NCBI RefSeq assembly: GCF_001469215.1
Contig: NZ_LOFH01000015.1
Span: 1-64,000, forward strand
From: Pseudoalteromonas sp. H105
Lineage (GTDB): Bacteria > Pseudomonadota > Gammaproteobacteria > Enterobacterales > Alteromonadaceae
Direction of reading: 5' to 3'
DNA: 64,000 bases
The notes under the pieces are model-generated. The model had not been told where the DNA came from. It was given only the letters and a program-made list of their open reading frames with translations, and did not search any database. The position numbers were made by a program, and so were the translations under genes. Shown here in pieces: positions 39,158 to 64,000 of the stretch (position 1 is the stretch's first letter; each line of letters starts with the position of its first letter).

Positions 39158-39275
39158 CTAATGGGAAGGATGATTGTCTTTTTAATTTGCTTGTCAAAAT
39201 AACGTGTTGCACTCAACCTTGTTTGTATTTTGTGCGCACACGGGTATATCAATTTTAATTATAAGAGAGAATGCT

Positions 39276-40958
39276 ATGCAATCAGTTGTAATTGTACTAC
39301 TGGGTATGGTTGGAATGCTTTTTGGTTGGTTTGTTTACTCAAAATTTATCGCCGAAAAGATTTTCAAGATGGATGACAACTTTGTCACACCCGCTCATGA
39401 GTTAGAAGATGGTGTGGATTATGTGCCAACAAACAAAGTGGTTCTATGGGGACATCACTTTACCTCTGTGGCAGGGGCTGCACCAATTGTAGGGCCTGCA
39501 ATTGCCGTTTACTGGGGCTGGGTACCTGCCGTACTGTGGGTTGTATTTGGTACTATATTTTTTGCCGGTGTACATGACATGGGCGCTTTATGGGCAAGTG
39601 CGCGCAATAAAGGTAAATCCATGGGGGCACTCTCAGAATCGGTTATAGGCAAACGTACTCGGGCTTTGTTTATGATTGTTGTTTTCCTTGTTTTGTTAAT
39701 GGTTAATGCCGTATTTGGAGTGGTCATAGCAAAGTCGTTTATTAATAGCCCAAATGCGGTATTTCCTGCGTGGTCAGCTATCGTAGTCGCACTTGTTATA
39801 GGTCAACTTCTGCGTAAAAAAGTATCGCTTATCCCGCTATGTTTTATTGGGGTAGGGATCTTGTATTACACCATTTATCTGGGCAGCAGTATGCCAATTA
39901 TGTTACCGGATGAACTATTTGGTTTATCTGCAAACGCAAACTGGATAATCATTTTATTTGTTTACGCAGCCATTGCGTCTTTGTTACCCGTTTGGATGTT
40001 ACTGCAACCCCGTGACTTTATTAACGGCATGCAATTGCTGGTGGGGCTAGTGCTTTTATATGGCGCTGTATTTGTTTCAATGCCTGATATCACTGCACCT
40101 GCATTTAATACGCAAACAGCCCTCGATACCCCAAGTATTATCCCGTTGTTGTTTGTGACAATAGCCTGTGGTGCGGTTTCTGGATTCCATGGCATAGTGT
40201 CATCAGGGACGAGTTCTAAACAATTAAACAAAGAAACTGATGGTCGCTTTGTAGGTTACTTAGGTGCCGTTGGCGAGGGAATGCTTGCATTAATTACACT
40301 GGTTGCGGTAAGTGGTGCTGCATTAGCTGTATCACCTGAAGAGTGGCATGAAATATATAGCCATTTGGGTGCGGGCAGCGTTGGGGCCTTTGTTAATGGC
40401 GGCGCTAATTTGATTGAAAGTGGTTGGGGGATATCCAATGAAATTGCCTCCACACTGCTTGCGGTTATGGTAGTGTTATTTGCAGGCACGACGATGGATT
40501 CAGGTGTTCGTTTGCAGCGCTATATTATCCAAGAGTGGGGTGATATCTATAACATTAAAGTAATTAAAAATGGTGTGATAGCAACTTTAATTGCGGTATT
40601 AAGTTGCCTATTGTTGGCGTTTGGTGCGGGTGGTGCTAGCGGCAGCGGTGGAATGATTATATGGCCTCTGTTTGGATCAACGAATCAAATATTAGCAAGT
40701 TTAACTTTATTGGTTATCTCTGTGATATTGATTAAAGCTAACCGTCCTGCGCGATATACGCTGATCCCAATGAGCTTTGTATTAGTGATGGCATTCTTCG
40801 CGGGTGTGATTAAGTTAGGCGAATATTACCAGCAAGGCAATTGGTTACTGGTGATACTTGATGTTGTCGTGCTAGTAATTAGTGTATTGGTGATGCTTGA
40901 AGCATGGTCCGTTATTGCTAAACACCGCCGCGAAAACGCACTCAAACCTAGCGAGTAG
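39276..40958 (+). CDS. CstA/BtsT-family carbon starvation carrier
   Basis: A 560-residue membrane protein with about 14-16 segments. LWGHHFTSVAGAAPIVGPAIAVYWGW and FFAGVHDMGALWASARNKGKSMGAL are hallmark CstA sequences, as is FHGIVSSGTSSKQL. It is shorter than E. coli CstA (701), matching the compact subgroup. Known members import pyruvate or peptides when carbon is scarce. ATG 39276 has GAGAGA upstream; the frame runs back to TTG 39204. An M17 aminopeptidase gene follows after a structured 124-base gap, which would suit peptide use. Confidence 0.9.
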   Translation: MQSVVIVLLGMVGMLFGWFVYSKFIAEKIFKMDDNFVTPAHELEDGVDYVPTNKVVLWGHHFTSVAGAAPIVGPAIAVYWGWVPAVLWVVFGTIFFAGVHDMGALWASARNKGKSMGALSESVIGKRTRALFMIVVFLVLLMVNAVFGVVIAKSFINSPNAVFPAWSAIVVALVIGQLLRKKVSLIPLCFIGVGILYYTIYLGSSMPIMLPDELFGLSANANWIIILFVYAAIASLLPVWMLLQPRDFINGMQLLVGLVLLYGAVFVSMPDITAPAFNTQTALDTPSIIPLLFVTIACGAVSGFHGIVSSGTSSKQLNKETDGRFVGYLGAVGEGMLALITLVAVSGAALAVSPEEWHEIYSHLGAGSVGAFVNGGANLIESGWGISNEIASTLLAVMVVLFAGTTMDSGVRLQRYIIQEWGDIYNIKVIKNGVIATLIAVLSCLLLAFGAGGASGSGGMIIWPLFGSTNQILASLTLLVISVILIKANRPARYTLIPMSFVLVMAFFAGVIKLGEYYQQGNWLLVILDVVVLVISVLVMLEAWSVIAKHRRENALKPSE

Positions 40959-40986
40959 CAGGTAGTTTAAGCTGTAAAACTTACTT

Positions 40987-41021
40987 GCCAGTAATGTGTT
41001 AACTCATCTCACATTGCTGGC
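40987..41021 (+). terminator. stem-loop after the CstA-type gene
   Basis: GCCAGTAATGTG (40987-40998) pairs with CACATTGCTGGC (41010-41021) with one G-U pair and an 11-base loop. No T run follows, so it may process or partly terminate the message ahead of the next hairpin. Confidence 0.45.
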
Positions 41022-41046
41022 AATGGCTATATAAATAAATGATAAT

Positions 41047-41082
41047 AAGGTCCTAAGCTTTTTGACAACAGGACCTTTTTTT
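41047..41082 (+). promoter_or_regulatory. terminator-like hairpin covering the aminopeptidase ribosome site
   Basis: AAGGTCC (41047-41053) pairs with GGACCTT (41071-41077), and seven T (41076-41082) run directly up to the ATG at 41083. AGGA of the 3' arm (41070-41073) is the only good Shine-Dalgarno sequence, 9 bases before the ATG. The structure could end transcription from the CstA-type gene, hide the ribosome site, or both. Confidence 0.6.
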
Positions 41083-42606
41083 ATGGCATACCCCCATGCA
41101 GTTGTGGCCCCGCAATTAGATAACGCTAAACATGATGCGCTTATTATTATTGCTGATGACTTTTCTGAACTAGACGATCCTAATTTGAGCAAAGCAATTA
41201 AAGCTCAAATGGCCGTTGATGCCCGCATAGGTAAACAAGTAACACTCCTTGTCGTTGACTCTAAACGCGTAATTTTAGCACCAACGGGTCCTTTAAACCG
41301 TGATTACGATGATGTACGTCGTTATTTTGATGCAGCAAAATTGGCTATCAATGAAGCAAAAGCGTCTGGTAGTAAAAAGCCTGCGATTTTCCTTCCTCAG
41401 GCAAGCCAAGATTCTCGTTATCAATATGCGTTAGAAGTTGCATACTTAGGTGCTTGTCAAGCATTGTGGCAACCGCTTGAAGCCCGTGAGCACCACGGTG
41501 AAGGTATTGAGCCTATTACACAAATTGCGCTATTTGGTGCCACAGAAGAAACCATTAAAGCCGTTAATGCGATTGCTGCAGGGCAGTACGCAGCACGTGA
41601 TTTATGTGGTACTGAACCTGAGCGTATGGCACCGCCACGTTTTGCCGATTATTGCGTTGATTTATTTAAAGACTCTAACGTAAATGTTGAAGTAATCTCA
41701 GACATTGCAGCAATTGATAAAGATTACCCAATGATGAGCACAGTAGCGCGTGCATCGTATGCGGTAGAGCGCCATCATCCACGTGTTGTAAAACTTGAAT
41801 ATACCCCAGAGGGCGAAGTTACCCGCACGTTAATGTTTGTCGGTAAAGGGTTGGTTTACGATACGGGTGGTGCAGATTTGAAAGTTGGCGGCTACATGGC
41901 TGGCATGAGCCGCGATAAAGGCGGTGCAGCCTCGGTTGCGGGCTTTATGAAGTCAGTGGCTGACTTTCAACCAAAAGGCGTTAAAGTTATTGCCTTTTTA
42001 GCTGTGGTTCGCAACTCTATTGGTTCAGATTGTTTTGTACCCGATGAAATTATTACCAGCCGTGAAGGTGTTCGCGTTCGTATTGGTAATACTGATGCAG
42101 AAGGGCGTTTAGCAATGGGCGATTTATTGAGTGAGATGAAAGATCTCGCTAAAAATGAGGTTAACCCAGAGCTTTTCACTGTTGCAACATTAACTGGTCA
42201 TGCCGCTCGTGCGATGGGGCCTTACAGTGCTTATGTTGAAAATGGCCCTGCACGTCTTGCTAATGTATCTCGTAAATTGGCCGATTGCGGTGATTTATGG
42301 GCTGATGGCGCTGAAGTATCGCGTAGCCGCCGTGAAGATTATGACTTTGTTAAACCACGTACCTTGGCCGATGATGTACTATCAAGTAATAACGCAGCGT
42401 CTGCGGTAACTGCCCGAGGACATCAGTTCCCAATGGCGTTTCTAGCCATTGTTGGCGGATTGGATAAGCATGGCAGTGAATCTGCGCACCCAATTCCTTA
42501 TATCCATATGGATATTGCTGGAAGTGGTGTCGAAGGCGGGGATTGGCAGCACGGTAAGCCGACAGCTGCAGGTTTAAGTAGCTTGTTCGCTCGTTACTGT
42601 TTGTAA
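41083..42606 (+). CDS. M17-family leucyl aminopeptidase
   Basis: A 507-residue cytosolic peptidase. ATG 41083 is preferred because AGGA lies 9 bases upstream; TTG 41062 is inside the hairpin loop. The catalytic domain carries GKGLVYDTGGADLKVGGYMAGMSRDKGGAASV with metal ligands and active Lys, and the family signature NTDAEGRL. The sequence differs from E. coli PepA (MSRDKGG in place of MKYDMCG), so it belongs to a side branch of M17. It should remove N-terminal residues from peptides using two metal ions. Its place after a CstA-type carrier suggests breakdown of imported peptides. The hairpin leader hints at regulated expression. Confidence 0.92.
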   Translation: MAYPHAVVAPQLDNAKHDALIIIADDFSELDDPNLSKAIKAQMAVDARIGKQVTLLVVDSKRVILAPTGPLNRDYDDVRRYFDAAKLAINEAKASGSKKPAIFLPQASQDSRYQYALEVAYLGACQALWQPLEAREHHGEGIEPITQIALFGATEETIKAVNAIAAGQYAARDLCGTEPERMAPPRFADYCVDLFKDSNVNVEVISDIAAIDKDYPMMSTVARASYAVERHHPRVVKLEYTPEGEVTRTLMFVGKGLVYDTGGADLKVGGYMAGMSRDKGGAASVAGFMKSVADFQPKGVKVIAFLAVVRNSIGSDCFVPDEIITSREGVRVRIGNTDAEGRLAMGDLLSEMKDLAKNEVNPELFTVATLTGHAARAMGPYSAYVENGPARLANVSRKLADCGDLWADGAEVSRSRREDYDFVKPRTLADDVLSSNNAASAVTARGHQFPMAFLAIVGGLDKHGSESAHPIPYIHMDIAGSGVEGGDWQHGKPTAAGLSSLFARYCL

Positions 42607-63801: not shown

Positions 63802-64000
63802 ATGAATTTACACAGCGCACAAGAAATTATAGATGACATTAAAGCCGGTAAAATGGTTATTTTAATGGATGACGAAGACAGAGAAAATGAAGGCGATTTA
63901 ATTATTGCAGCTGAGCATATCAGTGCAGAAGCTATTAATTTTATGGCAACCCATGGACGCGGCCTTATCTGTTTAACGATGACCCAAGAGCGCTGTGAAC
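63802..64000 (+). CDS. ribB: 3,4-dihydroxy-2-butanone-4-phosphate synthase, 5' part
   Basis: The first 66 residues are inside the window. They read [19 protein letters not shown], then [20 protein letters not shown] with the acidic metal-binding stretch, and [19 protein letters not shown]. This is the RibB synthase; whether a GTP cyclohydrolase II (RibA) half follows, as is common in this gene order, cannot be seen. The 38 bases before it are too short for an FMN riboswitch, so control must come from the operon promoter. Confidence 0.93.

Follow-up and report, generated by a model that had tools for sequence, protein, structure and literature searches.

The locus analysed here raises the question of what a terminator-like hairpin does directly in front of the start codon of an aminopeptidase gene, when another gene on the same strand ends shortly upstream. 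The window, the whole stretch of 64,000 nucleotides of Pseudoalteromonas sp. H105 that was analysed, carries on its plus strand a cstA-type transporter gene (39276-40958; PF02554, Pfam CstA 6.2e-137), whose transcripts run towards the hairpin. Adjacent to it on the same strand lies an M17 aminopeptidase gene (41083-42606; PF00883, Pfam 3.1e-58) with its ATG at 41083. The start of cstA was set at the ATG at 39276 by eye and from a relative (L200), the mechanical ORF being opened by a GTG at 39204. For the mechanical M17 ORF, the alternative start TTG at 41062 was rejected, as it is not conserved in most of the relatives compared. The nearest named relatives of the window's M17 protein (26 loci) were all Pseudoalteromonas. 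The protein scored far under the NCBIfam equivalog cut-offs of the matched leucyl aminopeptidase and PepB models, and thus it probably represents a separate subfamily. The initial annotation proposed that the hairpin acts as an attenuator or a translation switch which links carbon starvation to peptide breakdown.

The hairpin is formed by pairing of AAGGTCCT (plus strand, 41047-41054) with AGGACCTT (41070-41077) over a loop of 15 nt (41055-41069). A run of seven T (41076-41082), the U tract of the RNA, ends at the start codon, and the 20 nt ahead of the ATG contain a single Shine-Dalgarno-like word, AGGA at 41070-41073 in the 3' arm; on both points the initial description was accurate. Folding of the 162-nt leader gave a z score of -2.91, with 1 of 200 shuffles as good, and the 46-nt hairpin alone gave -1.23, with 22 of 200 shuffles as good. 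The window sequence taken alone is thus moderate evidence against chance. The loop, which ranges from 11 to 16 nt in relatives, is long for a terminator. The hairpin was not among the sites of a standard terminator scan, which has a loop limit of 8. In the leader region no Rfam match reached the gathering score, and neither a sensor nor an anti-terminator fold was noticed there. Elsewhere in the window, Rfam matched V_AS9 (Vibrio RNA AS9) on the minus strand at 63899-64000 with 60.2 bits, the match being cut by the window end.

The arrangement was also searched for in the own genome, where the scan covered 81 stretches with 1,649,884 bases and 1372 mechanical ORFs with a minimum length of 120 aa, the window included. 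A stem scoring at least 17 and hiding a Shine-Dalgarno word was found at 17 start codons, and among these only that of the aminopeptidase also has a run of at least four T. At L226:18393 (G000:C2:238393), a mechanical ORF of 130 codons is preceded by a Shine-Dalgarno word hidden in the stem TAACCTTAG/TTAGGGTTA, which lies two bases downstream of TATAAT and is followed by no T run. It is a second possible case of a nested stem.

To see how the hairpin is distributed, leaders were read in all genomes of a sample of 108 Pseudoalteromonas. The M17 gene was found in 108 of 108. In 72 of them the gene directly upstream, on the same strand, is cstA (cstA+); in the other 36 it is not (cstA-). Stems were scored for pairing of the -10/leader region with the last 22 nt ahead of the ATG; the best score was taken for each genome, and 16 or more was called strong. 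A strong stem was present in 71 of 72 cstA+ genomes and in 4 of 36 cstA- genomes (Fisher 7e-22, with relatedness ignored). A loose terminator criterion, consisting of at least four G-C pairs, a loop of at most 18 and at least five T in the next eight bases, selected 70 of 72 cstA+ and 0 of 36 cstA- leaders. A T run of at least five was seen in 62 of 72 cstA+ leaders but remains in 9 of 36 cstA- leaders, so the T run alone is no marker. The U tract is broken (ATTAT) in 9 of the 72, and one further genome has only three T; the efficiency of termination must therefore differ between genomes. The four cstA- genomes with a similar score have another, A+T-rich stem; the leaders L011, L014, L015 and L016 carry AATAGAGG/CCTTTATT, whose pairing includes the end of the -10 box. 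Outside the genus 58 genomes had a match and 26 loci were read. Only one of these orthologues reached the score of 16 (L283, 16.5, with no T run), and no CstA match was found in the available flanks of the 26 loci.

The stem varies in sequence while its pairing is kept. The initial annotation had pointed to covariation in relatives as a check and to unconserved pairing as a refutation. This refutation did not occur, and the pairing turned out to be conserved, with 267 of 280 inner pairs (P1-P7) standard in 40 distinct cstA+ leaders. Shuffling the 3' letters within columns gave a mean of 242 standard pairs (sd 3.0, maximum 253 in 5000 shuffles), while sliding the pairing partners gave 63-196 of 280. 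P4 is C-G in 24 leaders and T-A in 15, and P6 is G-C in 34 and A-T in 5. Five standard types occur at P7 (A-T, G.T, C-G, T-A and G-C). On the tree the minimum number of changes is 2 for P4, 2 for P6 and 11 for P7, which means few independent covariation events in the core. The pairs were counted on script-anchored arms with typed arm motifs, an anchoring which leans towards pairing; these arms were used because in the MAFFT alignment the 5' arms are one base out of register between clades. Swapping arms between genomes left 5.66 of 7 pairs compared with 6.46 for own arms, and as 63% of swaps reach 6 pairs, this is a weak test for the stem. Taken together, the leader sequences support conserved pairing with covariation. 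The comparison across genomes confirmed at this level that the hairpin is real and conserved, and it raises the hairpin above chance.

In the window, a -10 box GATAAT (plus strand, 41041-41046), conserved in relatives, is followed immediately by the 5' arm. A -35-like CTGGCA lies at 41017-41022 (promoter scan, 9 of 12 matches, spacer 18). As their -10 box, 72 of 72 cstA+ leaders have GATAAT, CATAAT or TATAGT; by script the three words were counted 53, 7 and 11 times, and L060 adds one GATAAT by inspection. Where the hand-set box of L060 entered the later counts it was one base off, with no effect on any of the ranges. In 71 of 72 they precede the ATG by 32-37 nt. In all 72 the 5' arm starts at a position from -2 to +3, counted from the end of the box, so that the box abuts or overlaps the arm. 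In 61 of 72 cstA+ and 22 of 36 cstA- leaders a -35-like TGG precedes the -10 box by 22-23 nt, against a background of 5.4%. The -10 and -35 words remain in most cstA- genomes even though the stem is gone. On the minus strand at 41039-41068, within the hairpin, a promoter-like TTGTCA-18-TATCAT (10 of 12) is directed back into cstA; promoter-like sites across the region were no commoner than in shuffles.

At sigma70 promoters transcription usually starts about 7 nt after the -10 box, which puts the expected start of the aminopeptidase RNA at 41053-41055. As the box abuts or overlaps the 5' arm, RNA from this promoter should lack most of the arm. Across the cstA+ leaders, an RNA starting 7 nt after the box would keep 0-3 of 6-9 pairs, and one starting at +9 would keep 0-1. 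The full hairpin should then form only in RNA arriving from cstA. In folding, the window hairpin has -9.3 kcal/mol, compared with -1.0 for RNA starting at 41053 or 41055. The median minimum free energy of the leader is -13.9 kcal/mol for read-through RNA and -0.2 for own RNA. The predicted median probability that the Shine-Dalgarno word is unpaired is 0.03 in read-through RNA versus about 0.2 in own RNA, and own RNA is the more open in 49 of 72 genomes. A separate calculation, which covered 71 of 72 cstA+ and 34 of 36 cstA- genomes, gave 48 of 71 for the cstA+ group. The predicted difference in opening is modest.

The reading that we consider probable is a promoter-nested insulator, which would end the cstA mRNA and block expression of the aminopeptidase from read-through RNA while sparing the aminopeptidase's own mRNA. 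Transcripts from cstA would carry both arms and form the hairpin, and the U tract would release RNA polymerase, giving the 3' end of the cstA mRNA. If some RNA runs past the U tract, its Shine-Dalgarno word would be locked in the stem. The gene's own mRNA would begin within or just past the 5' arm, form no stem and be translated freely. About 45 bp would thereby double as the end of the cstA unit and as the promoter and leader of the aminopeptidase gene. The reading is built on the pairing, its covariation, the geometry of the -10 box and the dependence on the neighbour, all of which are read from the sequences; from these we infer the start site, termination, the translation block, and termination as the main selected role. 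By its G+C-rich stem and U tract the hairpin looks like an intrinsic terminator, weakly so in the nine ATTAT leaders; a T run of at least five in most cstA+ leaders makes termination the probable main role. A second terminator-like site between cstA and the leader was found in only 6 of 72 cstA+ loci. Between the cstA stop and the ATG lie 63 to 158 nt, as parsed for 69 of the 72 loci (L089, L091 and L110, for which the distance was misread, being left out). With a gap as short as 63 nt, promoter, terminator and leader must share bases in the tightest genomes. A co-directional dinB lies upstream of the M17 gene in most cstA- genomes and no such stem is present there, an arrangement which counts against the insulator reading.

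The dependence on the neighbour can be followed on a tree of M17 proteins from 89 of the 108 genomes; the other 19, all cstA+, were left out. The presence of cstA changes three times on this tree. In the three independent contrasts the stem moves with cstA in 2.7 on average and in the opposite direction in 0 (sign test, p 0.25), significance being out of reach with only three contrasts. The contrast within the window's own clade is the most telling of the three. Here G018, G025 and G083 have no cstA anywhere in the genome at E 1e-20. They carry AAGCTCCT in place of AAGGTCCT as the 5' arm, while the 3' arm and the -10 box are unchanged. Two displaced cstA genes were found, in genomes which lack cstA at the aminopeptidase locus (G127 and G002), and each is followed, no more than about 30 nt past its stop, by an ordinary hairpin and a T run. 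The initial annotation had the hairpin joining carbon starvation to peptide breakdown, and this was not supported. A hairpin kept with cstA and weak or lost in its absence points to the exclusion of cstA read-through rather than to a link between both genes.

The closest rival to the promoter-nested insulator is a plain cstA terminator which overlaps the next promoter and leader by chance, the Shine-Dalgarno word being buried with no role of its own. The sole difference between the two is that the plain terminator includes no translation block. We regard it as unlikely, though it retains some weight. The frequency of T runs of at least five, the selection of 70 of 72 cstA+ and none of the 36 cstA- leaders by the terminator criterion, and the ordinary terminators behind both displaced cstA genes would all be expected from it. 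What it accounts for less well is the group of nine genomes with GGGCTGATTAT leaders. In these the U tract is broken, yet the stem has 11 pairs in eight of them and pairing reaches into the -10 box, and pairing kept for its own sake fits such leaders better. In this group the translation lock may be the main effect. A wider reading, offered tentatively and with less confidence than the insulator itself, is that the element is a transcript-origin filter. Two RNAs of one coding region would be told apart only by where they start. The filter would persist as long as cstA, a strong and unwanted neighbour, is there and would disappear once it is gone; in the clade of nine genomes whose U tract is broken it would act through translation alone. 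Should filters of this kind be common, they would lie hidden at many compact gene borders.

A regulated switch, either in the leader of the aminopeptidase's own mRNA or as starvation-regulated read-through from cstA, is improbable. Its appeal comes from a terminator-like hairpin that buries the Shine-Dalgarno word at the start codon, from the second stem just upstream and from the fact that carbon starvation and the use of peptides are functionally close. These are outweighed by the placing of the -10 box against the 5' arm in every cstA+ leader, by which the own RNA would start without the arm, and by the weakening or loss of the hairpin in cstA- genomes where promoter and gene remain. The absence of an Rfam match in the leader also speaks against it, as does the upstream stem-loop, which is tied neither to the hairpin nor to cstA. 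Of the proposal of an attenuator or translation switch, what stands is a conserved hairpin that buries the Shine-Dalgarno word and resembles an intrinsic terminator; a switch in the leader of the own mRNA disagrees with the geometry of -10 box and 5' arm. Least probable of all, and very improbable, is a DNA operator in which the repeat is a palindromic protein site across the transcription start. The inverted repeat is indeed centred just 3' of the -10 box. Nevertheless the distance between its arms varies (loops of 11, 12, 13, 14, 15 and 16 nt), the two arms covary, with P7 showing five types of pair, and the repeat is kept or lost with the neighbouring gene and not with the promoter.

The upstream stem-loop was described initially as a 12-base stem. 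It is present on the plus strand at 40985-41023, with arms at 40985-40998 and 41010-41023, but it has 14 pairs with one U.G, and 13 pairs in the larger fold. Its 3' arm lies over the -35 sequence. A score of at least 17 was reached in 30 of 72 cstA+ and 13 of 36 cstA- leaders, so it is not tied to cstA and was rejected as a partner of the nested hairpin. It may be an operator or a separate stem of an mRNA 3' end.

The proposed promoter-nested insulator is a conserved, well-built but small device, which would place promoter, terminator and Shine-Dalgarno lock within about 45 bp at a border of genes on the same strand. It offers a natural experiment in which the neighbour is lost and the stem decays. 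It also carries a warning for annotation, as a hairpin at a start codon need not switch that gene's own mRNA. A literature search limited to this organism and these genes found no paper on the element, and we are aware of no earlier description of an insulator of this kind that is retained or lost together with an adjacent cellular gene. IS10/Tn10 and IS200 are said to carry Shine-Dalgarno-hiding hairpins at their 5' end.

Related arrangements have been described in other systems. In the account of E. coli frd-ampC in PMC6045580, the ampC promoter lies within the last frd gene, and ampC RNA crosses the terminator, which is its attenuator. There, as here, the terminator of the upstream unit overlaps the start of the downstream gene; the difference is that the present promoter abuts the 5' arm, so that the own RNA should escape. 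For insertion sequences, PMC2965389 describes 5' terminators which prevent expression on landing in transcribed regions. The likeness is in a structure at the 5' end that would stop expression from transcription entering from outside, whereas no mobile element is involved at this locus and the stem, facing one fixed neighbour, is lost along with it. A similar logic is given for phage T4 gene e (lysozyme), and also for soc, 49 and I-TevI, in PMC3014915: long transcripts initiated upstream form a stem which hides the Shine-Dalgarno sequence, and those from late promoters, placed a short way ahead of the ribosome site, do not contain its 5' strand and are translated well. By sequence, the region of the Shine-Dalgarno word is likewise paired here with a strand on its 5' side. 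The conserved -10 box stands in 72 of 72 at a place from which own RNA should lack most of this strand. In contrast to the T4 account, a housekeeping gene of a cell is concerned, its promoter is sigma70-like, insulation would be constant instead of following early and late timing, and the U tract should also terminate. The element would show a cellular, genus-wide version of the device described for phage T4 and insertion sequences.
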